Source: Paracidobacterium acidisoli (GTDB taxonomy: Bacteria; Acidobacteriota; Terriglobia; Terriglobales; Acidobacteriaceae). From it: a DNA stretch of 64,000 nt. The position numbers and the translations under genes were made by a program. The notes under the pieces are model-generated. The model did no database searches, had not been told where the DNA came from, and was given only the letters and a program-made list of their open reading frames with translations. Shown here one piece after another: positions 8,331 to 50,178 of this stretch (position 1 is the first letter of the stretch; each line of letters starts with the position of its first letter). The stretch lies in assembly GCF_003428625.2 (NCBI RefSeq), contig NZ_QVQT02000005.1, forward strand, positions 248,001 through 312,000. The letters are read 5' to 3'.

Positions 8331-10385
8331 ATGAAAAAAACAGAGACAATGAGCCGCAGAACGTTTCTATCGGCCGCAGCAGGCACAGCCGCGGCATCAC
8401 TGTTCACTACCGCACATGCCGGCGCTCTGTACTCTTCAATGGCCCAGGCGGGCAACGCAGATCCGCAGTATCCGTGGAAAGACAAAGGCGTCATCGATCT
8501 TTCTCATTCGCCGTATGCAAAACTCAAAGGCGTGCCGGTGGCCGCCGTCACCATCCAGGAAGGATTCTGGTCGAAAAGACGGCAGACGAATGTGCAGGAC
8601 AGTATCCCAAGCATGTATGACGAGCTGATCGCCCACGGCCGCATGGATAATTTTCTCCGGCTTGAAGGCAGATCGGATGCGCCGCAAAAGGGTCCCGTCT
8701 ACTCCGATTCCGACATGTATAAGTGGACCGAAGCCGTTGGATTTGCCCTGCAGACCCAAAATCTGCCGGCGCTTCGGGAAAAAGCCGACACAGTCATTCA
8801 TGAAATCGTGGCCGCGCAGGAGCCGGGCGGCTATCTGAACACCTATTATGTGCAGGATCGGTCGAAACTACGCATGCTTCCGGATACGCAGACCACCGGG
8901 CATGAGCTGTACAACATCGGTCATCTCATCCAGGGTTCCATTGCGTACTATCGGGCCACCGGCGATCCTACGCTGCTCGATGCAGGCATAAAGTTTGTCG
9001 ACGGCTTTCTTCTGCCAAACTACGGCCCCGGCCCCAATCAGAAGCCGATCGTGGCAGGGCATCCTGAAATCGAGATGTCGCTGATCGAGCTGTATCGCAC
9101 CACCGGGAATCATAAGTATCTTGAGCTCGCAGGATATATCCTGCACGGCGACACGCGCATTCCGCTGAAAGAGCGGCAGATCGTGTATATGTTCTGCGGC
9201 ATTCCTTTCACGTCGCGCACAAAGCTCGAAGGACATGCTGTGCGTGCCATGTATGCGTGTTGCGGCGCGACAGATTACTACCTCGAAACCGGAGATGCGT
9301 CTTATCTCAATACGCTGACGCATCTGTGGGAAGACCTGATCGAGCATCAGCTCTACATCACCGGGGGAGTCGGTGCGCGCAGCGAAGGAGAAGCCTTCGG
9401 CGATGCCTACGAGCTTCCGAACGCGCGGGCTTATGGAGAAAGCTGCGCGGCAATCGGAAACATGATGTGGAATTACCGCATGCTCTCGGCAACTGCCGAC
9501 GCAAGGCATGCAGATGTGATGGAGCGCGCGCTCTATAACGGAATCAATTCCGGTATGTCGCTGAATGGCAGGCTGTATTGTTATCGCAATCCGCTGGCCT
9601 TCGACCCCTCGACTGGCGATCGTATCCGCAATCCGTGGTACGACACCACCTGCTGCCCCCCGAATCTGGAGCGCACCCTGGCATCGCTGCCGGGATATTT
9701 TTACAGCACCTCATCAGAAGGGATCTACATTCATCTCTATGACAATTCTGAGCTGAACTGGCGCCTGGAGAGCGGGAATGCGATTCGCATCACGCAGACC
9801 ACAAAATATCCCTGGGAAGGCCGCGTCAATCTGCGCGTAATGCCTGGCCAGCCGGAAGAGTTCACCATATTCCTGCGCATTCCCTCCTGGTCCCGAGCGT
9901 CATCGGTGAGTGTGGGGGGTAGGCAAATGGGAAATATTGCCCCCGGACGATATCTGGCCATTCGGCGCCGCTGGAGCGGAGAAGAAAATATCGAGCTTAA
10001 TCTCGATATGCAGCCGAAGCTCGTACGGGCCAATCCGGCCGTCGCCGAAGACACAGGCCGGATCGCAGTACAGCGCGGGCCGGTGGTCTTCTGTATGGAG
10101 CAGCTCGACCAGGCCGACGCAAAGCCGGACAACTTCGCGTTATTCGCCGCACGCCTGTCAGGAGAAACGACGGCGCAGTACAACGCCGACCTTCTGGATG
10201 GCGTTGTTGAGTTGACGCACGCAGGGGTGGTCAACGAGCAGGCCGCTTCCGCTGCACTTTATCAAGCTGCGCAGACCGCAGGCTCCGGAGGACAGAGCAT
10301 GCCGCTCCGTCTCATTCCGTATTACGCATGGGCAAATCGGGAGCCGTCAAATATGCAGGTCTGGATACCGTATTCACGCGCATAG
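8331..10385 (+). CDS. Tat-exported GH127 beta-L-arabinofuranosidase-type hydrolase
   Basis: 684 residues. The N-terminus has a twin-arginine signal (SRRTFLSAAAGTAAASLF). The domain belongs to DUF1680/GH127, retaining beta-L-arabinofuranosidases with a cysteine nucleophile and a zinc site. The residues equivalent to Bifidobacterium HypBA1 are visible: acid/base Glu354 in EGEAFG, zinc ligands Glu370 and Cys372 in YGESCA, and the Cys441-Cys442 pair in TTCCPPN, one of which is the nucleophile. The sixteen-residue spacing between the two glutamates matches HypBA1. It is therefore probably catalytically competent and acts in the periplasm on arabinofuranosides or related sugars. A GGAG ribosome binding site precedes the ATG. 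The second GH127-type gene starts 43 bases downstream, so the two are one operon. Confidence 0.9.
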   Translation: MKKTETMSRRTFLSAAAGTAAASLFTTAHAGALYSSMAQAGNADPQYPWKDKGVIDLSHSPYAKLKGVPVAAVTIQEGFWSKRRQTNVQDSIPSMYDELIAHGRMDNFLRLEGRSDAPQKGPVYSDSDMYKWTEAVGFALQTQNLPALREKADTVIHEIVAAQEPGGYLNTYYVQDRSKLRMLPDTQTTGHELYNIGHLIQGSIAYYRATGDPTLLDAGIKFVDGFLLPNYGPGPNQKPIVAGHPEIEMSLIELYRTTGNHKYLELAGYILHGDTRIPLKERQIVYMFCGIPFTSRTKLEGHAVRAMYACCGATDYYLETGDASYLNTLTHLWEDLIEHQLYITGGVGARSEGEAFGDAYELPNARAYGESCAAIGNMMWNYRMLSATADARHADVMERALYNGINSGMSLNGRLYCYRNPLAFDPSTGDRIRNPWYDTTCCPPNLERTLASLPGYFYSTSSEGIYIHLYDNSELNWRLESGNAIRITQTTKYPWEGRVNLRVMPGQPEEFTIFLRIPSWSRASSVSVGGRQMGNIAPGRYLAIRRRWSGEENIELNLDMQPKLVRANPAVAEDTGRIAVQRGPVVFCMEQLDQADAKPDNFALFAARLSGETTAQYNADLLDGVVELTHAGVVNEQAASAALYQAAQTAGSGGQSMPLRLIPYYAWANREPSNMQVWIPYSRA

Positions 10386-36807: not shown

Positions 36808-37587
36808 ATGAACCTTCCATCGAAGATTGTCGTTTTGCTCAGAGCCACTGGAGTAGCTATGGTTCTCCTGGTATCGACAGTCACAGCAGTAAGGGCGCAG
36901 GCGCCGGCAGTCGATCCCGCCGCGGCTGCAAGAGGCAAGGGAATCTTCGGTGCGAATTGTTCCTTTTGCCATGGCGCGCAGGCGACAGGCACGGAACAGG
37001 CGCCGAATCTTCTGAGAAGCCCGCTGGTGTTTCAGGATAAAGGCGGCGATGTTCTGGGGCCATTTCTCAAAACGGGCCGTCCAACGCTTGGCATGCCATC
37101 GTTCGCCTCCCTGGCCCCCGCTCAGGTATCGGATATCGCTGCCTTCCTTCATCAGCGCCTTACAGAAGTTCGGGGCAAACGTCTCCCGGAGGCCGCACTG
37201 CTGGTAGGCAATGCAGATGCGGGCCGCGCGTACTTCAATGGACCAGGAAAGTGCAGCACCTGTCACTCTCCCACCGGAGATTTAGCCGGCATCGGTACAA
37301 AGCTGCAGCCCCTCGCCCTGACAACTGCGTTTCTTACGCCGCAGGCAAAGCCGGAGCAGGTTCGTGTCACCCTCCCCTCGGGAGAGGCGGTATCCGGAAC
37401 GCTGAAGTTCATGGACGAATTTACCGTCGCTCTGATCGATTCATCCGGCACGTATCACTCATGGGTACGATCCTCCGTGAAGTCCGTGGATGTGACCGAT
37501 CCGCTCGCGGCTCACAAGGAAATGCTTCCGCACTATACCGATACAGAGATTCATAACCTGCTGGCATATCTGGTGACACTGAAATGA
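36808..37587 (+). CDS. dihaem cytochrome c, electron acceptor of PQQ dehydrogenase
   Basis: 259 residues with a signal peptide (VAMVLLVSTVTAVRAQ). Two haem c sites are seen: CSFCH at residues 51-55 with distal Met96 (LGMPSF), and CSTCH at 149-153. A beta-rich segment (about 170-215, VRVTLPSGEAVSGTLKFMDEF) follows the second haem. Its stop overlaps the start of the PQQ dehydrogenase by four bases (ATGA). The dehydrogenase lacks its own haem, so this cytochrome is its likely acceptor in the periplasm. Its promoter carries the AGTTC-N6-GAACT operator. Confidence 0.85.
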   Translation: MNLPSKIVVLLRATGVAMVLLVSTVTAVRAQAPAVDPAAAARGKGIFGANCSFCHGAQATGTEQAPNLLRSPLVFQDKGGDVLGPFLKTGRPTLGMPSFASLAPAQVSDIAAFLHQRLTEVRGKRLPEAALLVGNADAGRAYFNGPGKCSTCHSPTGDLAGIGTKLQPLALTTAFLTPQAKPEQVRVTLPSGEAVSGTLKFMDEFTVALIDSSGTYHSWVRSSVKSVDVTDPLAAHKEMLPHYTDTEIHNLLAYLVTLK

Positions 37588-39212
37588 AACGTCTGCTTCT
37601 GTTCTCGTCGCTGATCTTTGCCCTGTTCCCCCCGACCCTGCCCGCGCAAAACGTGGATTCGGCGACCCTGCTTCATCCCCCTGCCGATTCATGGCCGACA
37701 TACAACGGAGAGTATTCCGGCCAGCGCTTCAGCAAGCTCGATCAGATCAACTCTTCCAACGTCAATTCGCTTGCTCTGGCGTGGGCAAGCCATTTCGACT
37801 TTGGCGCACAGTCTTTTGCCCAGCAGGCGAACGAAGGCCGTCGTATCAAAGCCAGCCCGCTCCTCGTCGACGGAGTGCTTTACTTCACGATCACAGACAA
37901 TGTGTGGGCCATTGATGCCCGCTCCGGGCGCGAGATATGGCACTATGCGTGGCCAAACAACAATGCGATCCATGTCGCCAACCGCGGCCTTGGAATCTAC
38001 GGCAGCTGGCTCTACTTCATGACCCCGGATGACTATCTGGTCTCGCTCAATGCAAAAGACGGCACGGAGCGCTGGAGAGTACAGATCGCTGACGTCAAGC
38101 AGGACTTCTTCTCCGCTTCAGCCCCTCTCATCATTGGAAACCACGTCCTCGTGGGGCCTGGAAACAACGACGACATCCGCGCCTTTCTGGAGTCGAGAGA
38201 CCCTGCTACGGGAGCACTGCAGTGGCGCTGGTGGGTTGATCCCGATCCCGGCGCTCCCGGCTCCCAGACGTGGAGCGATAACGCGACCATGATGAAGGGT
38301 GGTGGATTTCCCTGGTTGAATGGTACCTATGATTCTGAGCTGAACCTCTACTACCTGGGAACCGGCAATGGCGTCCCTATGGACCGCCCTCCGCATCCCA
38401 CACCCGACGGAGACAGTCTCTACACCGCATCGATCGTAGCGCTGAACCCCGATACTGGGAAGCTGGTCTGGGCCTATCAGGTTACCCCGCATGATACGCA
38501 CGATTACGATGCGGCGCAGATGCCGATCCTTTTCGACGCCGAGTTCAACGGGAAACCCCGCAAGCTTGTCGCTCAGATATCCAGAAACGGATACTTCTTT
38601 CTGCTCGACCGTGTCACCGGTGAACATCTCCTGACGACGAAATTCATGCCCCAGACCAACTGGGCCAAAGGAATCGATGCTCAGGGACGTCCGATTCCGG
38701 ACTACACGAAGGATGCCAATCCTCCCGGTGCTCTGGTCTCGCCCTATCCCATCGGTGCGACAAACTGGTGGGCGCCAAGTTACGATCCTAAGCTTGGTCT
38801 TCTCTATGCGAACGCCGCGCGGACATGGGCTTACTTCACGACTGCGGGCTATGGCCGCTTCCGCTTTCCGCCGCAGTATGTCACCGTGGCCATCGACTAT
38901 AAGACGGGAAAGGTCGTCTGGTCGCACGAACTGGGCGATCAAAGCGCTGTGCTGATCGCTGGGCTCATCACCACAGCCGGCAACCTTCTCTTTACCGGCG
39001 ACTCGACCGGAAATTTCATGGCTCTGGACCCCTCCACGGGCAAAACTCTGTGGCACGTCGGTCTCGGTCAATATGTCACAAACGCCCCCATCACTTACAT
39101 GCTTGACGGGCGCCAGTATGTTCTGGTGGCCGCCAACGACACATTTTTCGCATTTGCTCTGCCGGAGCCACCGGCAGGGGCAGGGCAGAGCGCATCGGCG
39201 AAACACCGCTGA
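37584..39212 (+). CDS. PQQ-dependent (quinoprotein) alcohol/sugar dehydrogenase
   Basis: 542 residues with a signal peptide (FALFPPTLPAQ). It is an eight-bladed quinoprotein propeller with the family's typical opening (WPTYNGEYSGQRFSKLDQIN). Tryptophan-docking type repeats follow: GVLYFTITDNVWAIDARSG, NAKDGTERWRVQI, ALDPSTGKTLWHVG. The adjacent-cysteine disulfide of methanol dehydrogenases is absent and there is no haem domain, so it resembles soluble or cytochrome-coupled acidobacterial PQQ enzymes. It probably oxidises an alcohol or aldose in the periplasm and passes electrons to the preceding dihaem cytochrome, to which it is translationally coupled. The substrate is not predictable. Confidence 0.85.
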   Translation: MKRLLLFSSLIFALFPPTLPAQNVDSATLLHPPADSWPTYNGEYSGQRFSKLDQINSSNVNSLALAWASHFDFGAQSFAQQANEGRRIKASPLLVDGVLYFTITDNVWAIDARSGREIWHYAWPNNNAIHVANRGLGIYGSWLYFMTPDDYLVSLNAKDGTERWRVQIADVKQDFFSASAPLIIGNHVLVGPGNNDDIRAFLESRDPATGALQWRWWVDPDPGAPGSQTWSDNATMMKGGGFPWLNGTYDSELNLYYLGTGNGVPMDRPPHPTPDGDSLYTASIVALNPDTGKLVWAYQVTPHDTHDYDAAQMPILFDAEFNGKPRKLVAQISRNGYFFLLDRVTGEHLLTTKFMPQTNWAKGIDAQGRPIPDYTKDANPPGALVSPYPIGATNWWAPSYDPKLGLLYANAARTWAYFTTAGYGRFRFPPQYVTVAIDYKTGKVVWSHELGDQSAVLIAGLITTAGNLLFTGDSTGNFMALDPSTGKTLWHVGLGQYVTNAPITYMLDGRQYVLVAANDTFFAFALPEPPAGAGQSASAKHR

Positions 39213-40406: not shown

Positions 40407-42026
40407 TTACGCCGTTCGCTGAATAGTCAGAATCGTCTGATCATCCTGTTGTCCGGTTCCCTGGCAGAACGTGTCAAGTGCTGCGAACAGTGCGGCAACG
40501 GCGTTCTGTTCGTGCAGGTAATCTTCAAGCTGTGCCGGACCAAACTGCGCGCCGTCGCAGTTTTCCGCTTCCGTAATGCCGTCGCTGAGCAAAATCATAC
40601 GGTCCCCGACCTCAAGATTTACGGGCACGGAATGGAAGTGTGCGAAATCCATCAGTCCAACGGGAAGATCTCCCTCCCGGACGATTTCAACGACTCCGTT
40701 TGCGCGGACAACGAATGGGCAGATATGTCCGCCATTGATCAGCTCGATCTGCGCTTCTCCCGAACCCGAATGGATATAGCGAAGCGCAACCAGCGTCAGA
40801 TATTTTTCCCCAGGAGTTCGGGAGCAGACAAAAGTATTGATGGACTGCACCATGTCCACCAGCGAGAAGTCTGTCGTCGCCTGCATGCCGACCTGAGCAT
40901 GAAACATCCCCTGCACCATGGAGGCAAGAAGCGCCGCCGGCACTCCCTTGCCGCAGACATCCGCGATCACGGCGACAAAGCCATCCGCGGTGGTGATCAC
41001 GTCATAGAAATCCCCGCCGACGCTGGTACACGGAACAGTCCGGGCTGAAAGATGCGCAAACGAGAATTCAGGCAGCGCCTGGGGAATGATCTGCCGCTGA
41101 ATGGCAGCGGCAATATCGAGTTCCCTGCGCAGCAGGGCAGCCTCGCGTTCTGTTTCCAGCATGCGCAGATTTTCAACCAGCGTTGCCGCCTGATGTGCAA
41201 TGGCATGCAGAATGTCATTGCCCGTTCGTGTGAAATCGCCGCTGCCTGAATGGCTGTCGAGATAAAGCACGCCGAGAAGCCGCCCTGAGTTCTGACCATG
41301 CAGAGGGATCGCGACAACACTGCGAATCGCATTCAGAATGATGCTGTCGCGCCCCTCGACAATCTTTCCCGTCAGATCGGAAAGAATGAATTCAAGCTGG
41401 GAAGAAACCGCATCGCGCACAATCGAATAAGAGATGGCTGGATGCCCCGGAATGTCTGTGCCCTCGCGGTCCTGCCCGCACTCGAGGCGGAGACTGTCGG
41501 CACTATCTCCAAGAAAGACAAAGCCGCGCTCTGCTCCAGTCAGGCGAAGCGTGTATTCAAGCATGCTGCGGAGCACGTCATGCACAGCGCCATAGGTGTT
41601 CAGGCTTTGCGCTGCCTTCAGAAAAAGGGAAAGCTTTTCAAGATCATTCTGGTCTCCGGTGCTCGCGCCGCTCTGCGAAAGCTGGCTGAGCAGGGTGCGC
41701 GCCGTGCTTTCTTCCTCGCCTTCCTCAAAACGCAGTGTGTCATGGCTGGTTCCCAGCGTAATGAAGTCGCCCGAGCGAAGGCGCGTTATGGTGACCGCAA
41801 TTCCATTCACGAAGGTGCCGTGGCGGCTGCCCATGTCGCGCAGCAGGTAGCCATCGGCATCGCGCTCGATGCGGGCATGCTCGCGTGAGATCTGAGGATG
41901 ATGAAGGATGAGATCGCGGCCCACACCTCGCCCAATCGTAAACGGGAGGGCATCGATTGAAACCGTGCTCCGGCTTCCGTCGACAGAAAGAACGAGCCGG
42001 GCATTAGCCTTTTGAACAGGATGCAT
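40407..42026 (-). CDS. FHA-GAF-PP2C (SpoIIE-type) phosphatase
   Basis: 539 residues, cytoplasmic. An N-terminal FHA domain (about 10-100) keeps Gly32-Arg33, Ser47, His50 and Asn74 of the phosphothreonine pocket. A GAF domain (about 125-290) follows. The C-terminal PP2C/SpoIIE domain (about 310-537) has SVGGDFYDVI, IADVCGKGVPAALLASM and DGITEAENCDGAQFG with metal-binding aspartates, and late QQDDQTILTI. Such proteins dephosphorylate Ser/Thr-phosphorylated partners or anti-sigma antagonists, with FHA reading phosphothreonine. It is divergent from a Ser/Thr kinase-TPR gene 208 bases away, so kinase and phosphatase probably act on shared targets. AAGGAG precedes the ATG. Confidence 0.9.
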   Translation of the reverse strand: MHPVQKANARLVLSVDGSRSTVSIDALPFTIGRGVGRDLILHHPQISREHARIERDADGYLLRDMGSRHGTFVNGIAVTITRLRSGDFITLGTSHDTLRFEEGEEESTARTLLSQLSQSGASTGDQNDLEKLSLFLKAAQSLNTYGAVHDVLRSMLEYTLRLTGAERGFVFLGDSADSLRLECGQDREGTDIPGHPAISYSIVRDAVSSQLEFILSDLTGKIVEGRDSIILNAIRSVVAIPLHGQNSGRLLGVLYLDSHSGSGDFTRTGNDILHAIAHQAATLVENLRMLETEREAALLRRELDIAAAIQRQIIPQALPEFSFAHLSARTVPCTSVGGDFYDVITTADGFVAVIADVCGKGVPAALLASMVQGMFHAQVGMQATTDFSLVDMVQSINTFVCSRTPGEKYLTLVALRYIHSGSGEAQIELINGGHICPFVVRANGVVEIVREGDLPVGLMDFAHFHSVPVNLEVGDRMILLSDGITEAENCDGAQFGPAQLEDYLHEQNAVAALFAALDTFCQGTGQQDDQTILTIQRTA

Positions 42027-42110
42027 ACTGGCCAGCTCCTTCCCCCGAACTTAACCGGATAGTATCACCAGGAGAAGGCAATTCTGCGTCTTACGCCGCT
42101 CAGTACGGAC

Positions 42111-42116
42111 TATAAT
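42111..42116 (+). promoter_or_regulatory. candidate -10 of the kinase operon
   Basis: A perfect TATAAT lies 119 bases before the proposed kinase start. No convincing -35 was found at 16-18 bases upstream. Confidence 0.4.
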
Positions 42117-42234
42117 CCAGTTTCGATGACTCGTGATCCTGTGGTGCCCGCACACCCCCAAAGGCCCCTGCACCTGAGGATTCAACTCCCCTCCGGTTAT
42201 CCCATGGATCTTGTTCTTCACGGTCGCAGCCCGT

Positions 42235-44502
42235 ATGCACGACGATCCAACGCGTTCCTTTGACGGCCCCGTAACCGCGCCCGCCGGCCTGCCTCCAGGC
42301 CGCGATACATGGGGAGATTTTCGCCTGCTGGCGCGCGTCGGACACGGCGGGTTCGGCGAGGTCTACCGTGCCTGGGACCCCCATCTGGAGCGCGAAGTGG
42401 CCCTGAAGCTCCTGCTGCCCGGTTCGGTAAATGGTGAAGCGGAATACAGCGCCATATTGCGCGAGGCGCGAGCACTGGCCGCTGTCCAGCATGCGAATAT
42501 CGTGCACGTCTACGGCATCGACCGGCACGACGGGAGAGTCGGCTTCTGGACTGATTTCGTGCATGGAAAGACGCTCTCCGTGCTGCTGGAAGCCCAGGGG
42601 CCCTTCGGTTACCGTGAGGCAGCGCTGATCGGGCTGGACGTGGCAAAGGCCCTGAGCGCAGTGCATCGCACCGGCATTCTGCACCGGGATATCAAGACGG
42701 AAAACGTGATGCGCGAAGAAGGCGGACGCATCCTTCTGATGGACTTCGGACTCAGTGCTCTGCCGCAGCGCCTGACAGGCATTGCCGGAACGCCGAACTA
42801 TATGGCTCCCGAGCTCTTCACAGGTCATCCCGCAACCGTAGCCAGCGATATCTACGCCATGGGCGTGCTTCTCTATCACCTGGTAACAGGCGAATACCCC
42901 GCAAGGCTGAGCGGGATAACGCCCGCGGAGGCCGCGGACGCAATCGGCAAAAGAAAGCCGCTGCTTGATGTCAGGCCCGATATTCCGGAACCATTCCTGA
43001 AAGCCGTGAACATGGCCATGGAAGTTGATCCGGCGAAGCGGTTCGGCAGTGCCGGGCATCTGGCGGCAGCACTTACTGAGTCGCTCGGTGCCTCTGTATC
43101 CGACAATGCATCTGGTCCAAAGGCCGGACCAGCGCCGCGCAGAAAAATGTTGTTTCCGGCCGCTGGCGTGGCGGCCATTATTCTCGCGGTTGCGGCACTC
43201 GCCGGTATGCGAAGCGAATCTCTGCGGCGATGGCTTCATCTAGCCGGCAACCAGACCGCATCCGTAGTGCCTGCAAACGTCTCAGACGAATTTCTCAAAG
43301 CGCAGGACTTGCTGCAGCACTCCTACAAGGGTGCCAATCTCGCCGCTGCTGTGACGGGCTTTCAGCAGGTGCTTCAGAAAGATCCTTCCTTTGCCCTGGC
43401 CGAGGCCGGTCTGGGAAGCGCGTATTTCGGCCAGTTCAGGAACAGCCGGGATCCAAAGCTCCTCGATCAAGCGACAGAACATATCGACAAGGCTCTCCAG
43501 CTTGATCCAAATCTTGCCTCGCCCTACGTAACGCAGGCCAGAATCGCCGCGATGGAAGGGCACACGTCTCTCGCAATGCAGCAGATAGAGAAAGCTATCA
43601 GCCTCGACCCGCACAACGCCGAGGCCTACGGCTCTCTGGCGGAAATCTATAAGGCTAACGGACGGCTAAACGACTCCTTCACCGCCCTGCAGAAAGCAAT
43701 CGACCTCGCTCCGGATGACTCACGATGGCCTCTTCGGCTGGGCTCGTACCAGTTTGGTGCAGGCAATCTGCAGGAAGCGGTTCGTCAGCTTCAGAGCGCC
43801 ATCAGCCTCGCTCCCGATAATGCGACTGCATATTTTGATCTCGGGGTTGTCGATATGCAGCTGGACAAGCTGCCGGAAGCAAAAGCGAATCTCGAGAAGT
43901 CTCTTGCGCTCGATCCCTACTTTGACACGTATCAGACACTTGGAACCTTAGCCGAGCTCGAGGGCCGGTTCAGCGATGCTGTCGCGATGTACCGGAAGGC
44001 AATCGATCTCAACCCGAACAGCTATGAGACATGGGGAAATCTCGGAAGCGCATATCTATGGAGTGGCGCAGGAAAGGACAAGACTGGCCAGGCATATCGT
44101 AAAGCGATAGAGATCGCCGAGGCCGAGCGCAAAAAAACTCCGGAAGATGCTCGTCTTCTTGGAGAGCTTGCAAATTACTATGCCTCCATCGGCAACAAGA
44201 CGCAAAGCAGCATTTTTGTCCGCCAGAGCCTGGCATTTTCCAATGACGATCCAGCAATTACCTATCGCGCCGGGGAGACGTATGAGATTCTCGGGCAGCG
44301 CGAGAAAGCCATTCCACTGATAGCGGAAAGCGTAACCCGGGGCTATGATCTGAACGAATTCCAGCGCAGTCCGGAGCTTGCGTCCCTCCGCAGCGACCCG
44401 GCCTTCCAGGCAGCACTCGTTATGGCGAAAACCCCAAAAATGATCACCATGCAGACAGCAAAACAAAGTGAACCGAGGTCAATTACCAATGGCAAACACT
44501 GA
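42235..44502 (+). CDS. transmembrane Ser/Thr protein kinase with extracytoplasmic TPR domain
   Basis: 755 residues from the ATG at 42235 (a TTG at 42211 is unlikely). The Hanks-type kinase domain (about 28-285) is complete: glycine loop VGHGGFGEV, Lys58, HRDIKTEN with Asp152, DFG Asp170 and APE in the activation segment. A single transmembrane segment (about 305-324) separates it from a C-terminal region of TPR repeats (about 345-735), which should lie outside the membrane. It likely senses or scaffolds something in the periplasm through TPRs and phosphorylates partners inside. The divergent FHA-PP2C gene is a plausible counter-enzyme. The next gene overlaps its end by 14 bases. Confidence 0.9.
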   Translation: MHDDPTRSFDGPVTAPAGLPPGRDTWGDFRLLARVGHGGFGEVYRAWDPHLEREVALKLLLPGSVNGEAEYSAILREARALAAVQHANIVHVYGIDRHDGRVGFWTDFVHGKTLSVLLEAQGPFGYREAALIGLDVAKALSAVHRTGILHRDIKTENVMREEGGRILLMDFGLSALPQRLTGIAGTPNYMAPELFTGHPATVASDIYAMGVLLYHLVTGEYPARLSGITPAEAADAIGKRKPLLDVRPDIPEPFLKAVNMAMEVDPAKRFGSAGHLAAALTESLGASVSDNASGPKAGPAPRRKMLFPAAGVAAIILAVAALAGMRSESLRRWLHLAGNQTASVVPANVSDEFLKAQDLLQHSYKGANLAAAVTGFQQVLQKDPSFALAEAGLGSAYFGQFRNSRDPKLLDQATEHIDKALQLDPNLASPYVTQARIAAMEGHTSLAMQQIEKAISLDPHNAEAYGSLAEIYKANGRLNDSFTALQKAIDLAPDDSRWPLRLGSYQFGAGNLQEAVRQLQSAISLAPDNATAYFDLGVVDMQLDKLPEAKANLEKSLALDPYFDTYQTLGTLAELEGRFSDAVAMYRKAIDLNPNSYETWGNLGSAYLWSGAGKDKTGQAYRKAIEIAEAERKKTPEDARLLGELANYYASIGNKTQSSIFVRQSLAFSNDDPAITYRAGETYEILGQREKAIPLIAESVTRGYDLNEFQRSPELASLRSDPAFQAALVMAKTPKMITMQTAKQSEPRSITNGKH

Positions 44503-44911
44503 AATTACAATCTCAAACAGCGAAGGCACATTGCTTGGCAGTCAGCCTTCGGTTACTGTGACGGACGGCGATATAGTAACTTTCTCAATCGGCAGCGGTC
44601 AGGCCTTTCTCTTCTTCTCACCCGGTGCAGCCGCCGTTCTTTCTCCTTCACCCAGGGGCCCGGTTCCAGTCGGTCCCTCCGCTCAAGTCGCGTTTACATT
44701 CACTTCTTCTCAGCCGGGTGCATACAGCCTCTTTTTCGGAACGGATGCCTCTTTCGCACCACCAAATTTTCAGGTCGAGGAATCCAGGCAGCTTTGGTTC
44801 GGGATAAATGCTCCTGCGCCACCAGTGGAGGCGGTACCAGTACCACCGGATATCAATTTCGGCGGTCCCAGTACCGGGACAAGAGACATTACTTCAAAAA
44901 GTGGCTCTTAA
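44489..44911 (+). CDS. small beta-rich protein with Pro-rich tail, unknown
   Basis: 140 residues from the ATG at 44489, overlapping the kinase gene by 14 bases; GAGG lies about 11 bases upstream. The GTG at 44468 has no such signal. Residues 1-110 look like a beta-sandwich (VTVTDGDIVTFSIGSGQAF, QVAFTFTSSQPGAYSLFFG), recalling a cupredoxin-like fold, but no copper ligands are present. The tail (PAPPVEAVPVPPDINFGGP) is Pro-rich and ends in a Ser/Thr/Lys stretch that could be phosphorylated. There is no signal peptide, so it is probably cytoplasmic. The position suggests a substrate or adaptor of the kinase or the neighbouring proteases; this is inference. Confidence 0.6.
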   Translation: MANTEITISNSEGTLLGSQPSVTVTDGDIVTFSIGSGQAFLFFSPGAAAVLSPSPRGPVPVGPSAQVAFTFTSSQPGAYSLFFGTDASFAPPNFQVEESRQLWFGINAPAPPVEAVPVPPDINFGGPSTGTRDITSKSGS

Positions 44912-44944
44912 GCACCGTTACGGATTGATCAGCGCCACTGGCGT

Positions 44945-46393
44945 TCACTTCAGATCGGCGATCCGCAGCCTCGCTGCCGGGTCGCCGAGCACAATGTAGT
45001 TGCGGGCATCGTCGCGTGCAATGGTAAGAGCGCTGTGAGCAGCGGCACTCAGCGGCTGTGGTGCCTTTGGATCGCTGGACGCAGTGCGGTTTTCAGCTTC
45101 AATCAGCTGCGAACAGAGGTGGCTCCAGCGATCGCTCAGACAGTCAGCGGCATAACCGGCGCGGCGGCCCAGCATCAGATACGTCAGCGGGTCGCGGATA
45201 GCCTGCACCTGCGGCGTGCCGGTGACATCCTGAAACGCATAAGGGAAAGCCATGTCGATATGGGCAATCACAGCAAGCGCTCCGTGACTCAGAAGCGCCT
45301 GAGGTAAAGCCGCTACCAGCGGCGCAGGTGCAACTGGAATCTTCGAGCCATCGGGCTGAAAGTAATAGTTATTGTCCGCGGGGCAGCCGCCGCTGTAACA
45401 GGCAAACAGGAAGGCCATGGTTCCCTGCAGCCGCGCGTCCGCCGGAATATCCTCGGCAGAGAAGAGATTATCCGCTCCCGCCGGCGTTCCGCGAACCCAC
45501 TCCTGGGTAAAAAGTGAGCCCTGCATTCGCCGCTGCAGGGCCGGATCAGCGATCGGATACTCCGCACCGTGCGAGCCGGTAAAGAAGACCGCTGGCGGCC
45601 CGCCCGGAATATCTCCGCGCAGGATATCGATCAGCTGCTGTTTGGTAGCCTGTTTGGCGCTTGAACCGGTAAACGCATCGAGCGTGAACCGTGCAGCTCC
45701 CGAACCCAGCGGCCTGTGCACATCCAGAAAATTCGGGCAGAGCGCGCCCGAGAGCATGGCCGTGGCCACGTCGCCCTCATTGCGCGTAATCCACACGGCC
45801 GCATTCTTACGTTGCACAGGCTGAAAGGCCGGTGCCTCGTACTGAACGACCGCTTTTGCATAGCGCCCGTAATCCTCGATATCGTCGAAGGCCAGCCGCC
45901 CGACCGCCCACTGCATCTTGAGCAGATTCTGGAAGTCGAAAGGGATGCGATCGGGATGCCCTATCAGAAGCACGTAATAGGGAACACCGGCGAAGGGATC
46001 GACCTGCGCAGTGAGCGATACCCCCCGGTACTCCGCCCAGTTATCCGCAGTCTGTCCTGGCTGAACGCCGGTATTGCCCTCAAAGACTTTGAAAAGGTTG
46101 TCGTCGCCGACCTGGCTGCGTCGAAGATCGATAAGCGGCTGAAGCTGCGCCTTGATCGCTGGATCGGCATCCGAGGCGAAGAGGATGCACCAGCCTGTCT
46201 GGCTCAGATCATCGGGGTCGCCAACGCTGGAATCCGCAGCCAGATGGCTGGAATCGCGGCTGCGCTGGTCGGCTCCGGGAAGATCCCTGCCCACCGAAGG
46301 AATGCTCTCATGCGAGAGCGCCTGCGCCGGCGTCCCGGTCTGTGCATGAACCAGCAGTGGAATGGGAAGCGTATCCATCGGGGGCGTATTCAT
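44945..46393 (-). CDS. caspase-like (gingipain/C25-type) Cys-His protease candidate
   Basis: 482 residues from the ATG at 46393; an earlier in-frame start (46549) would overlap the divergent gene. The central domain (about 60-410) has a caspase/gingipain-like arrangement: strand VFFTGSHGAEYP with His275, then AFLFACYSGGCPAD with Cys332. Both are followed by the Gly-rich turn expected of clan CD dyads. Preceding Rossmann-like strands (YYVLLIGHPDRIPFDFQNLL) recall peptidase C25. The C-terminus ends in a possible processing or interaction segment (VLGDPAARLRIADLK). No signal peptide is visible, so action inside the cell is likely. It is divergent from the CHAT-domain gene with 65 bases between. 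Confidence 0.75.
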   Translation of the reverse strand: MNTPPMDTLPIPLLVHAQTGTPAQALSHESIPSVGRDLPGADQRSRDSSHLAADSSVGDPDDLSQTGWCILFASDADPAIKAQLQPLIDLRRSQVGDDNLFKVFEGNTGVQPGQTADNWAEYRGVSLTAQVDPFAGVPYYVLLIGHPDRIPFDFQNLLKMQWAVGRLAFDDIEDYGRYAKAVVQYEAPAFQPVQRKNAAVWITRNEGDVATAMLSGALCPNFLDVHRPLGSGAARFTLDAFTGSSAKQATKQQLIDILRGDIPGGPPAVFFTGSHGAEYPIADPALQRRMQGSLFTQEWVRGTPAGADNLFSAEDIPADARLQGTMAFLFACYSGGCPADNNYYFQPDGSKIPVAPAPLVAALPQALLSHGALAVIAHIDMAFPYAFQDVTGTPQVQAIRDPLTYLMLGRRAGYAADCLSDRWSHLCSQLIEAENRTASSDPKAPQPLSAAAHSALTIARDDARNYIVLGDPAARLRIADLK

Positions 46394-46458
46394 GAGTGAC
46401 CCTGCGGAGTCGCCGTTTGATCCTGAGTCTGCATCGCTGTATATGGTAGCGTGTCTGC

Positions 46459-48993
46459 ATGCCGTTTTACCGGAAGACTGCGATTGTTCAGTTTGAGCTC
46501 CCGAGCGGCGCAATGGAAAGCAGCCTGCCGCTGACCTGCGAGCGCGCATTCTCCGTCATTCTGCTCATTGAGGGAAGAACGCATCCGGCGCAGACCTTCC
46601 GGTCTCCGATCAACGATGAGCAGTGGCGCGAGTTCATACGCCAGCTCCGCGACTGCAATGTGAACCGCGATGTAAAGACGGGCTATCGCGGTGCGACGGC
46701 AATTCGCGCCCTGGCCCGCTCGCTCTATCAGGCGCTGGCGCAGATAAGCCCGGCCCTCCGCGAGTTCCTCGATCGCGCAGGTGTGCCGCGCCGGCTCGTG
46801 ATACAGACCACCCGTCCGGAGCTGCATCTGCTGCCCTGGGCCGCGATGTACGACGAGTCGGGTCATCCGCTCGCCGCGGGCGATCTGTCTGTCGTGCAGT
46901 CATGGCAGGATTTCGACGAGTTACCCGTATCGATGGGAAGCCGTCTGCAGTTGCTGAAGGTGCTCGGCGCGGATACAAACCAGCGAACCGCGGCGGCGCT
47001 CGATTCCCTGAAGCGCACGCCCGAGATCGTTCAGATCGATGCAACCAATGCCTTTGACGCAGGCCGCGCCGTCGATCAGATCGATATTCTGCATCTAGAA
47101 GAGCATGGCAATGCCGTTCGCGGCACAATCGGTGATGTGTCGGCTGCAGCGCTTGGAGCCGAGTTCGCAAAGGCGAAGATAGCTCTCTTGTGGAGCTGCT
47201 ATTCGGGCGCAGCCGATTCATGGGGAGAATCGCCGGCGCTCGCACTGCATCGAAGCGGTGCGGAGCTGGTCTTGTCCTTTCTCGCCGAGCTGCACAACGA
47301 AGATGCCGGGTCGATTTCAGAGGCATTCTATGGCGATGTCTTCGGCCCCGCTGCAAGCCGCGATCCTGAGTCGGCTCTTGTCCGCATCCGTACCGCGAAA
47401 ATGGCAACGGAGTTTGGCTTCGCCAACTGGGCCTCGATGACCGTCTGCCTCCGCAGATCTCTCGACCTGAGCGCACTGCCGCTGAATGGCCCGAGAGTCC
47501 CGGCACAGGCATGGGTCGAAGACACAATTCCGGAAGGCACCGCAGCCGCCGGTTTCTGGAAAGACGTCGCAGCACAGGTGAGCCGGCTGCAGCCCGGAAC
47601 GAAGAACGTAATCGACGCATCCTCGATCGCATACGCGAAGCTGCCGGTGACCGCATTCCAGGCATGGCGCGGGAATGTGATCCGCATAGACGAAGGTATG
47701 GACGTCATGCCCGATGACGCCACGCTGCGCGAACTGGGACTGGCCGCCGAAGCTGCGCCCAACGCCGATCCTGTCGACAGGCTGACATGGTTTTTCGCGC
47801 AGATCGCCCGCTTCGGTTCGCCCCTCATCGTATGGACCGGTGCCGAGCCGCGTCATCTGGAGTTCCTGAAAACGGTTGAGCCGGGAGCGCAGCTGACCTT
47901 CCTCCTGCTGTATGGGCTGAAGCCGAATCAGCCAGGCCTGATGGAGCTCGTGGACGAAAATCGTCTGGAAGAGGCGCTGACCCTTTGCGGCGGATTATCG
48001 CAGGACTGCGGCGATGAGCAGTTATACGCGGCATACTACGCCTGCGTGCGAGGCGAGCACCCGGAGCAGGCGCTGTCGTATCTTGCGCGCATTCAAAGCA
48101 GGCAGGAACGGCTGCTGCTGATGGGCAATTATCTAAGCCGTAATCCGGTAGTTCCGCTGAGCGAAAGCCTGCTTTCATCGTTTGGTGAATGGGCCCGGGG
48201 GGAGCGTCCCACGCGTCCGGAAGACTTCTATCGGCTGGCAATGAATGTGCCGGAAGGCGAATCGTCTCTGCGTGAGACAGGCCGGTCAAAACATGAGCTT
48301 GCCTGGATGATGCAGGCTACCGGACAGCCGGATACGGCTGAGCTGCTCTTCCGTCTTGCGCTTGCAGACATAGAGGCATCCGGGCAGGACCCGGATACAA
48401 GACGCGATTCGCGGTGGTATTTTGCCCTGTCATCCATACTGCGCGATTGGGCCGATCTGCTCGCGCAGACACCGGAACGGCTTGAAGAGGCTTCGCAGCT
48501 TCTTCATCGCGCGATGGCCGTCCAGTCATTTCACGGAATGCGTCTCGAGCTGGCATATTCCACGATGACGGCAGCGCGCATCGCACTTGCGGGGAGCCAT
48601 TACACCAAAGCGATCGATCTCGCCGTCGATGCAGCAAATCGTTTTGTGGAATGCAATAACGGACGTGGCTGGTGCGAAGCGCTCAGCATCCTGTTTGACA
48701 CCTTCGCAGAGACACGTCAGACGGCCCGTATGTTGAGCCTTGCGGCTCTGGCAGAAGAGAAATTAACGCTGTCGAATCTTCCCGGAAAAATACGTGAAGA
48801 ACAGATGCGGGATCTGGCATTTCAGCAGGCGCGAGCCTTCTGGATCGCAGGCGACCTTATCAATGCCCGCGAAAAGCTGCAGGCTCTGCGCAGCGCAGCG
48901 GATCTAAGACAGGTGAATCTCGATCCAAAGATTCTTCGATTGTATGACTTTCTCCGTCCTTTTCTTCATTCTGATCCGGCTCAGCAGCACTAA
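46459..48993 (+). CDS. CHAT-domain (caspase-like) protein with helical repeat C-terminus
   Basis: 844 residues. The N-terminal CHAT protease-like domain (about 80-310) shows ELHLLPWAAMYDESG, LHLEEHGN with His216 and ALLWSCYSGAADSWG with Cys247, the clan CD dyad. Then come LALHRSGAELVLSF and AFYGDVFGPAAS, which are CHAT hallmarks. A middle region (about 340-530) is unassigned. From about 540 to the end the sequence is alpha-helical and TPR-like (PDTAELLFRLALADIE, YTKAIDLAVDAANRFVE). CHAT-TPR proteins include the protease of type III-E CRISPR systems and many uncharacterised conflict proteins. No CRISPR genes are present here. It is divergent from the C25-like protease, and the two may be activated together. 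Confidence 0.8.
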   Translation: MPFYRKTAIVQFELPSGAMESSLPLTCERAFSVILLIEGRTHPAQTFRSPINDEQWREFIRQLRDCNVNRDVKTGYRGATAIRALARSLYQALAQISPALREFLDRAGVPRRLVIQTTRPELHLLPWAAMYDESGHPLAAGDLSVVQSWQDFDELPVSMGSRLQLLKVLGADTNQRTAAALDSLKRTPEIVQIDATNAFDAGRAVDQIDILHLEEHGNAVRGTIGDVSAAALGAEFAKAKIALLWSCYSGAADSWGESPALALHRSGAELVLSFLAELHNEDAGSISEAFYGDVFGPAASRDPESALVRIRTAKMATEFGFANWASMTVCLRRSLDLSALPLNGPRVPAQAWVEDTIPEGTAAAGFWKDVAAQVSRLQPGTKNVIDASSIAYAKLPVTAFQAWRGNVIRIDEGMDVMPDDATLRELGLAAEAAPNADPVDRLTWFFAQIARFGSPLIVWTGAEPRHLEFLKTVEPGAQLTFLLLYGLKPNQPGLMELVDENRLEEALTLCGGLSQDCGDEQLYAAYYACVRGEHPEQALSYLARIQSRQERLLLMGNYLSRNPVVPLSESLLSSFGEWARGERPTRPEDFYRLAMNVPEGESSLRETGRSKHELAWMMQATGQPDTAELLFRLALADIEASGQDPDTRRDSRWYFALSSILRDWADLLAQTPERLEEASQLLHRAMAVQSFHGMRLELAYSTMTAARIALAGSHYTKAIDLAVDAANRFVECNNGRGWCEALSILFDTFAETRQTARMLSLAALAEEKLTLSNLPGKIREEQMRDLAFQQARAFWIAGDLINAREKLQALRSAADLRQVNLDPKILRLYDFLRPFLHSDPAQQH

Positions 48994-49014
48994 GCGGACC
49001 TGGAAAGGAGCCGG

Positions 49015-50178
49015 CTAACGCGCATCGACCACCCCTGCATCCTTCAGGGCTCGTCGCTCTGCTTCCAGTGCTGTTGTATGCAGTTCGATAACGCGATGCA
49101 TCGCCGTCTCCGATTCCTGTGTCTTGCCTTCTGTCCGCAGTGCTCTGGACAGCAGATAAAAGACTTCCGACTCATCCGGATTCATCTCTGCCGCCTGGCG
49201 AAGCAGCCTGATCGCGGTAGATGTATCGTGCAGCTGGAACTCCGCCTTTCCCAGATAGAAGGGAATCGCCCAGGAATCAGGCGTCATCTCCTGAGCCTTT
49301 TTGAGGTAAGGGATGCCCTCCTGATAGCGATTCGTCTGAATCAGCAGCGCTCCCAGGTAATAACAGGCGCTTCCATCCTGTGCATCGGCATCGATTGCCT
49401 CATGCAGCTCCTTCTCTGCAGCTCCGTACTGCTGAAGACTGATATCCACCTTCCCCAGTTCGCGATGCGCACCAGGAAAGGTTGGGTCTGTCTGCAGAAC
49501 TGACTGGAAAGATCCTTCTGCATCGCGAAAGCGTGTCGCGTCGTAGTAGGCCTTTCCCAGCAGAAAATTAGACTGAGCCGGACTGACGGCATTCGAGAAA
49601 ATCTTTGCGAAGAGCTCCTTTGCCTGCTGTGCCTGTCCCGCGCGTGAATAGGAGACGCCGAGAAGATAGAGGGCCGCCGGATCGGGATGATCTTCCTGCT
49701 CAAGCGGCTCCAGAAGACGGATGCCCTCGTCAGCGTCCCCGCTGAAGGTGAGGCAGGTAGCCAGAAGCATCGTTGCCTGCGGGTCCGAGGGGTTCTGATG
49801 GTGCAGCTCGCGAAAGTAGGGCAGCGCCTGATCGTAATCATCCTGCTTCAGATAAGCCAGGCCCAGATCCAGCTCGATCGCTCTCTGATGAGGATCAATG
49901 CGCAGCGCATGCTCGTAGGCATCGATCGCTTTCGCATAACGATGCGTTCGCGAATAAAGAACGCCGAGATTGGCAAATGCGCTGATATTGTGCGGATCAA
50001 GCTGAAGCACTTTGCGAAGCCCTGCCTCCGCTGCCGGATAATCGCCGGCATTCAACGCCTGCATTGCCGCGTCAAAATTTTGCTTCGCTGTCTCGGTGCC
50101 CGCGCCAAAGCATGGCTCTGCGGCAGCGAAACTCAAAAGAAGAAACAGCGCGGTGATGGCGGCTGAGCGAACTCGCAT
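49015..50178 (-). CDS. exported TPR protein
   Basis: 387 residues with a signal peptide (MRVRSAAITALFLLLSFAAAEPCFGA). Consecutive tetratricopeptide repeats fill the mature protein (NISAFANLGVLYSRTHRYAK, SACYYLGALLIQTNRYQEG, SEVFYLLSRALRTEGKTQES). There is no enzymatic motif. It is convergent with the CHAT gene, only 21 bases apart, and precedes the Oar-like receptor gene on the same strand by position, though a separate promoter is needed. It may be part of the neighbouring receptor or signalling system. The ribosome binding site is weak. Confidence 0.8.
   Translation of the reverse strand: MRVRSAAITALFLLLSFAAAEPCFGAGTETAKQNFDAAMQALNAGDYPAAEAGLRKVLQLDPHNISAFANLGVLYSRTHRYAKAIDAYEHALRIDPHQRAIELDLGLAYLKQDDYDQALPYFRELHHQNPSDPQATMLLATCLTFSGDADEGIRLLEPLEQEDHPDPAALYLLGVSYSRAGQAQQAKELFAKIFSNAVSPAQSNFLLGKAYYDATRFRDAEGSFQSVLQTDPTFPGAHRELGKVDISLQQYGAAEKELHEAIDADAQDGSACYYLGALLIQTNRYQEGIPYLKKAQEMTPDSWAIPFYLGKAEFQLHDTSTAIRLLRQAAEMNPDESEVFYLLSRALRTEGKTQESETAMHRVIELHTTALEAERRALKDAGVVDAR

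Follow-up and report, generated by a model that had tools for sequence, protein, structure and literature searches.

Does the segment at positions 40407-50178 of a 64-kb stretch of Paracidobacterium acidisoli DNA, in which a Ser/Thr kinase gene and a phosphatase gene lie beside genes for two caspase-like proteases, encode a single system, and if so, of what kind? A reading made from the sequence alone had called this segment a signalling or conflict island. The whole 64-kb stretch (hereafter the window) was compared with related loci (denoted by L-numbers), and the island is supported by gasdermin genes beside the C25-like protease gene in five relatives, by CHAT/SIR2 and nSTAND partners, and by the replacement of the C25-like protease with a C14 caspase. 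On balance, we lean towards reading the locus as a system of caspase-fold proteases gated by phosphorylation, of the kind involved in conflict or programmed cell death.

Conservation of the neighbourhood and of the proteases

The genomes examined comprised 396 from the phylum (Acidobacteriota) and 398 from the same family as the window. The C25 family was found in 13 of the former and 9 of the latter, a sporadic accessory pattern. Within the family its setting is fixed: the kinase (KIN), a small protein (SMALL) and the C25-like protease form one block in 10 of 10 loci (9 genomes), with KIN and SMALL always on the same strand at a spacing of -35 to +39 nt. In three same-family metagenome-assembled genomes (MAGs; L003, L004 and L005), the C25-like proteins are 80-82% identical and the KIN-SMALL-C25 order is kept, and the CHAT protease gene is also present where the contig extends far enough. 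More distant C25-like proteins were found in the Bryobacterales MAGs L006 and L007 (33-38% identity) and, from a search of 100 relatives, in genome G092 (L002/L008; about 38%); KIN and C25 stay paired in Bryobacterales at 33-48% identity. A CHAT gene lies near 22 of the 29 distinct Acidobacteriota C25 loci, several outlying ones being recognised by weak profile scores only. Thus, the genes are not scattered among relatives, an outcome that the sequence-only reading had named as one that would refute the island. The window genome itself (5.0 Mb, 97% complete) has one C25-family gene, one SMALL gene and two CHAT genes, one of which is at this locus.

The C25-like protein matches the Peptidase_C25 profile (PF01364) at 25.0 bits against a cutoff of 23, and the CHAT protein matches PF12770 at 26.7 bits against a cutoff of 24. 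The catalytic dyads named in the sequence-only reading are present as described and are conserved in homologues: of 25 C25 proteins of the phylum, 24 retain His275 and 23 retain Cys332, and His216/Cys247 of the CHAT protein is invariant in all four orthologues at 50-70% identity. Pairwise ratios of nonsynonymous to synonymous substitution (dN/dS) within the gasdermin-less group described below (window, L003, L005, L068) are 0.06-0.20 for C25 and 0.11-0.15 for CHAT, values that are rough owing to partial saturation of synonymous sites; both proteases are under purifying selection in this lineage. At L034:6597-8081 and L042:8953-10650 the catalytic Cys of the C25 protein is replaced, as is the His at L042, and these two proteins look naturally inactive.

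The window protein resembles the gingipains (peptidase family C25) in its Pfam match and in having a clan CD His...Cys dyad. It differs from them in having no signal peptide, its N-terminus (MNTPPMDTLPIPL) containing no hydrophobic segment in a hydropathy scan. A C25 profile found nothing credible, and no gingipain, among PDB sequences, and an AlphaFold model built with six sequences was of low confidence (predicted local distance difference test, pLDDT, 39.5). In the CHAT protein the CHAT domain is N-terminal and is followed by a long helical, TPR-like C-terminal region (TPR_10 marginal, 0.033); its profile, too, found nothing credible in the PDB.

Gasdermins and exchangeable proteases at related loci

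A gasdermin gene adjoins the C25 gene at five loci (L006, L027, L030, L069 and L072), three of which (L027, L069 and L072) are complete loci of the family that also have KIN and SMALL. At L006, L027 and L030 it is a gene of 278-287 aa without a Pfam match. Four of the gasdermins were recognised by the PADLOC bGSDM model (2e-58 to 5e-72) and that of L072 by profile or tblastn; the L006 protein also matches the PDB sequences 7n51 and 8sl0 (8e-41). In the 396 phylum genomes, a neutral sample, three gasdermins were found, two of them adjacent to C25. The gasdermin gene stands between C25 and CHAT at L027 (10073-10936) and L069 (8461-9315); in the window, this very place is taken by the 65 bp that separate the two divergent genes, a spacing and orientation that the sequence-only reading had given correctly. 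No gasdermin was detectable in the other searched genomes of the window's close relatives.

A single loss of gasdermin in the window lineage is favoured, although not proven, because in the C25 tree the group without gasdermin (window, L003-L005, L068) falls among gasdermin-bearing family loci; the outgroup L006 is also gasdermin-bearing, and the key branches have support of 94/87 and 87/85. The kinase tree does not resolve gain or loss of gasdermin within the family, L003 and L005 being mixed with L027 and L069 at 88/88.

The L027 gasdermin begins MSPKQKDP and does not have the early Cys found at L006 (MALC) and L030; in studied bacterial gasdermins that Cys is an acylation site. A gene of about 206 aa with the motif LFTGHMIDAPxR lies behind CHAT at L027:14002-14622, L069:4934-5560 and L072:1075-1863. 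It is conserved in the gasdermin-bearing family loci, was not seen beside the window CHAT gene, and in its L027 copy matches neither Pfam nor PADLOC.

The protease itself is exchangeable. At five loci (L095-L099) of g9, a second genus in the family, KIN-TPR and SMALL occur together, accompanied by FHA-PP2C at four of the five; a C14 caspase is present at four of the five, followed at L095 and L097 by a CHAT-nSTAND protein. Because the g9 loci pair the same set with a C14 caspase, the KIN-SMALL(-PP2C) unit is independent of C25, and it recurs in association with caspase-fold proteases. What stays constant is the regulatory triad, whereas the caspase-fold protease beside it can be exchanged. Further partners of C25 include CHAT/SIR2 with nSTAND1 (L006, and by similarity L070 and L071) and C14 (L031 and L040). 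Sinorhizobium, Nostoc and Planktothrix plasmids also carry C25 relatives, accompanied by CHAT and nucleoside triphosphatase (NTPase) genes. A conjugative plasmid of Sinorhizobium terangae (L078:7608-18966) has an alpha/beta hydrolase, C25, a U41-like peptidase, a large ATPase and CHAT in this order, and Nostoc pNSMS101 has a similar C25 with two CHAT-NTPase proteins.

Other genes were noted beside C25. Between C25 and CHAT/SIR2, L070:10713-11228 and L071:8608-9114 encode a conserved helical protein, rich in Ala and about 170 aa long, on the same side as the gasdermin of L006 and L030; it may be an alternative membrane effector, and the L070 copy has no Pfam or PADLOC match. The gene at L032:8656-9477, which adjoins C25, CHAT and nSTAND, encodes a muramidase-like protein that gives a weak peptidoglycan-binding match, resembling the endolysin-like genes near gasdermins (PMC9612521).

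Kinase, small protein and phosphatase

The six genes of the locus are genuine open reading frames (ORFs) at the coordinates in Table 1. The likely start of the kinase is ATG 42235, because the window sequence MHDDPTRSFDG aligns there with MDDDPTLSLDG of relatives. Its VALK, HRD and DFG motifs are intact across the 11 kinases compared. Hydropathy predicts one transmembrane helix, at about residues 313-331 if numbering starts at TTG 42211, and in most of the compared kinases such a segment lies C-terminal of the kinase domain, which suggests that the TPR half is outside the cytoplasm. The window kinase has its best full-length match in the C25-adjacent gene in six of six genomes, at 41-56% identity over about 700 residues; these genomes hold 41-85 kinase/TPR matches each, and the paralogues are mostly kinase-domain-only matches at about 34%, except that the L007 genome has a second, slightly weaker full-length relative. 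The proposed role of this protein is that of sensor and kinase.

SMALL is a real gene, because homologues 44-52% identical to it occupy the same position in relatives. If started at ATG 44489, its ORF overlaps the kinase stop by 14 nt, the overlap that had been noted from the sequence. A SMALL profile matched at E<1e-43 in exactly the nine C25-bearing genomes of the 398 from the family, with a second tier (E 1e-12 to 1e-14) leading to the five g9 loci. SMALL proteins are 120-140 aa long, lack a signal peptide and contain almost no Cys and few His, and the window protein (140 aa) has neither Cys nor His; the alignment shows an invariant LSPxP core and an F-T-F strand. The profile matches the cupredoxin domain of Cu nitrite reductase (9e-5) and plastocyanin (0.015), and for this reason SMALL probably has a metal-free, cytosolic cupredoxin-like fold without copper ligands. 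It had been described as Pro-rich; a Pro/Gly-rich tail is indeed present, but the protein is a cupredoxin-like beta domain rather than simply Pro-rich. An AlphaFold model built with four sequences was of low confidence (pLDDT 47.5). Because SMALL is co-translated with the kinase and found beside two protease families, it is proposed as the best candidate for a partner, substrate or switch of the kinase.

In Bryobacterales the slot behind the kinase holds short ORFs that are unrelated to SMALL and unproven as genes: a 57-codon ORF at L006 (about 9513-9686) with DDKPSFSDV repeated four times, a Pro-rich one at L008 and an acidic one at L007. At L082:9685-12459 a C25-independent kinase-TPR gene is followed by a tandem cupredoxin-like small protein (a weak profile match), which suggests that the pairing of kinase and cupredoxin-like protein is a wider theme.

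The phosphatase gene is divergent from the kinase gene. Its Pfam domains and coordinates agree with the sequence-only reading, and its metal-site motifs GGDFYD, ADVCGKG and SDGI are intact. A PP2C orthologue adjoins the kinase at L027 and L069, and a PP2C gene stands beside kinase and SMALL at L095-L098. The protein is proposed to reverse or read the phospho-signal.

Table 1. Features of the locus in window coordinates
Feature	Coordinates	Strand	Remarks
FHA-GAF-PP2C (SpoIIE-type) phosphatase	40407..42026	-	Pfam SpoIIE 2e-34, FHA 2e-18, GAF 8e-8
KIN, Ser/Thr kinase-TPR	42235..44502 (ORF from TTG 42211)	+	Pfam Pkinase 4e-43 plus TPRs
SMALL, 140-aa cupredoxin-like protein	44489..44911 (ATG to stop)	+	Homologues directly behind the kinase in relatives
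C25-like caspase-fold cysteine protease	44945..46393	-	Pfam Peptidase_C25 1.3e-5
C25/CHAT intergenic region, 65 bp, divergent	46394..46458	.	Gasdermin slot in L027 and L069
CHAT protease	46459..48993	+	Pfam CHAT 4.8e-6
TPR gene	49015-50178		Right edge of the segment; not part of the system

The TPR gene that sets the right edge of the segment in the sequence-only reading was rejected as a member of the system, related loci offering repeat-level similarity only and no counterpart. Outside the locus, PQQ-dehydrogenase-like genes with similar N-terminal sequence are present at window positions 37584-39212 and at L098:4635-6254, a C14-type locus of the other genus; the two loci possibly share an insertion neighbourhood.

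Interpretation and relation to known systems

In the mechanism that we infer, from trigger and signal order to phosphorylation target, gasdermin cleavage and outcome, the TPR domain of the membrane-anchored kinase would serve to sense stress or infection, and the kinase would phosphorylate the co-translated SMALL, the proteases or both. The FHA-PP2C protein would reset the signal or read phosphothreonine, and the phospho-switch would free C25 and CHAT to cleave an effector. In sister lineages the effector would most simply be the adjacent gasdermin, leading to pores and death; its cleavage by the neighbouring proteases is to be expected for L027, L069, L072, L006 and L030. In the window lineage the proteases would act on another substrate (SMALL, the tail of CHAT or the product of a gene outside the locus), since gasdermin was probably lost while the proteases were kept. 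A broader proposal, which we make tentatively and with somewhat less confidence, is that the triad of Ser/Thr kinase, FHA-PP2C and cupredoxin-like adaptor is the universal input stage of an undescribed immune or cell-death class. Its proteases (C25 with CHAT, or C14) and its effectors (gasdermin, CHAT/SIR2-nSTAND, possibly lysozyme-like or helical proteins) would be exchangeable, its action phospho-switched and pyroptosis-like, and the window a variant without gasdermin and with another substrate.

Several observations weigh against a phosphorylation-gated death system at this locus. No gasdermin was found in the window (tblastn, E 0.1) or, by profile, in the window genome, and the window contains no recognisable executioner. 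The phosphatase occurs in just three C25-type loci besides four of the five C14-type loci, and is missing at the C25 loci L005, L068, L070, L071 and L072. The window has no phage-linked context, and the conflict role is drawn from association and from homology to gasdermin, CHAT and nSTAND neighbourhoods.

The strongest competitor, distinctly less probable than a conflict system, is regulated proteolysis in stress response or development, in which the triad would switch on C25 and CHAT without killing the cell and gasdermin would be an add-on of some lineages. It fits a gasdermin-less lineage that retains conserved, constrained proteases, a kinase resembling sensor Ser/Thr protein kinases, and kinase relatives that occur without C25 (for example L081); however, the sporadic distribution, the gasdermin, CHAT/SIR2 and nSTAND neighbours, and the plasmid-borne C25-CHAT-NTPase sets are all typical of conflict systems. 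Somewhat less probable again is that SMALL acts like an antitoxin, inhibiting C25/CHAT or C14 until phosphorylation by the kinase lifts the inhibition. A small, all-beta, cytosolic protein that is placed between kinase and protease and co-occurs with caspase-fold proteases of two families would suit such a role, but SMALL is constantly beside the kinase rather than the protease, its slot in Bryobacterales is taken by unrelated short acidic or Pro-rich peptides, and it would be unusual for one specific inhibitor to act on C14 as well as C25 enzymes.

It is improbable that the locus now has no function and is what remains of a decaying gasdermin system. Gasdermin is indeed present in the outgroup and sister loci and absent from the window lineage, but all ORFs are intact, the catalytic residues are present, dN/dS of C25 and CHAT is far below 1 and several genomes from a second genus preserve the arrangement. 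Least credible of all is chance clustering of a housekeeping kinase/phosphatase pair beside an unrelated C25-CHAT pair. The abundance of Ser/Thr kinase-TPR genes and the inconstancy of PP2C would allow it, yet the KIN-SMALL-C25 block is fixed in the family over long divergence, KIN and C25 remain linked in Bryobacterales and another genus has the triad together with C14; for KIN-SMALL-C25, chance is refuted.

Bacterial gasdermin (bGSDM) systems are reportedly the subject of Johnson et al. 2022. Caspase-like proteases encoded nearby cleave bacterial gasdermins, whose action is directed against phage, and the neighbours listed are peptidase U49, C14, CHAT and trypsin, C25-type proteases and kinases not being among them (PMC9612521). 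Caspase-fold proteases (CHAT, C14) stand beside bGSDM as C25 does in relatives of the window locus, and the window likewise has caspase-like proteases with conserved dyads; it differs in having no gasdermin and in the addition of the kinase, the cupredoxin-like small protein and PP2C. The window locus is a gasdermin-less relative of bGSDM systems, not a member, and its upstream part would work alike. Craspase, the type III-E CRISPR TPR-CHAT protein (PMC9729208), shares the fusion of CHAT to a helical, partly TPR-like region and the idea of a gated caspase-like protease, but in the window the CHAT domain is N-terminal and the gating partner would be a kinase or small protein rather than an RNA-guided complex. 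No Cas match was found among the proteins of the locus in Pfam, NCBIfam or PADLOC, CRISPR repeats and the rest of the window lying outside this search; judged by these genes, the locus is not a Craspase.

In the NTP-dependent conflict systems of Kaur et al. 2020 (PMC7159879), caspase-superfamily peptidases occur with NTPases and alpha/beta hydrolases, and kinase and PP2C pairs appear in an actinobacterial GAP1-N2 theme; C25 and gasdermin go unmentioned. The peptidase superfamily and the kinase-PP2C pairing are shared, but no vWA, MoxR or VMAP domain was found among the proteins of the window locus, which accordingly is not a VMAP ternary system, and its kinase is catalytically intact. The kinase domain matches the PADLOC models of the defence kinases PD-T4-6, MAD6 and PglW (4e-60), as many Ser/Thr protein kinases would; the likeness is limited to a generic kinase domain, the TPR half, the small protein and the proteases being foreign to them. 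The accessible literature contains no description of a kinase-gasdermin, C25-gasdermin or C25-CHAT association, and nothing relevant to the gene combination as a whole, although the absence of C25 and kinases from earlier gasdermin surveys is not established.

The activation of bacterial gasdermins and of most CHAT and C14 proteases is an open question (PMC9612521), for which the triad offers a concrete route, reversible phosphorylation. The triad is wired to two caspase-fold protease families, at times with gasdermin as the next gene, and the gasdermin neighbours suggest that C25-like enzymes are a further gasdermin-associated class of protease. As a natural experiment, the gasdermin-less lineage of the window should bring a second substrate to light.

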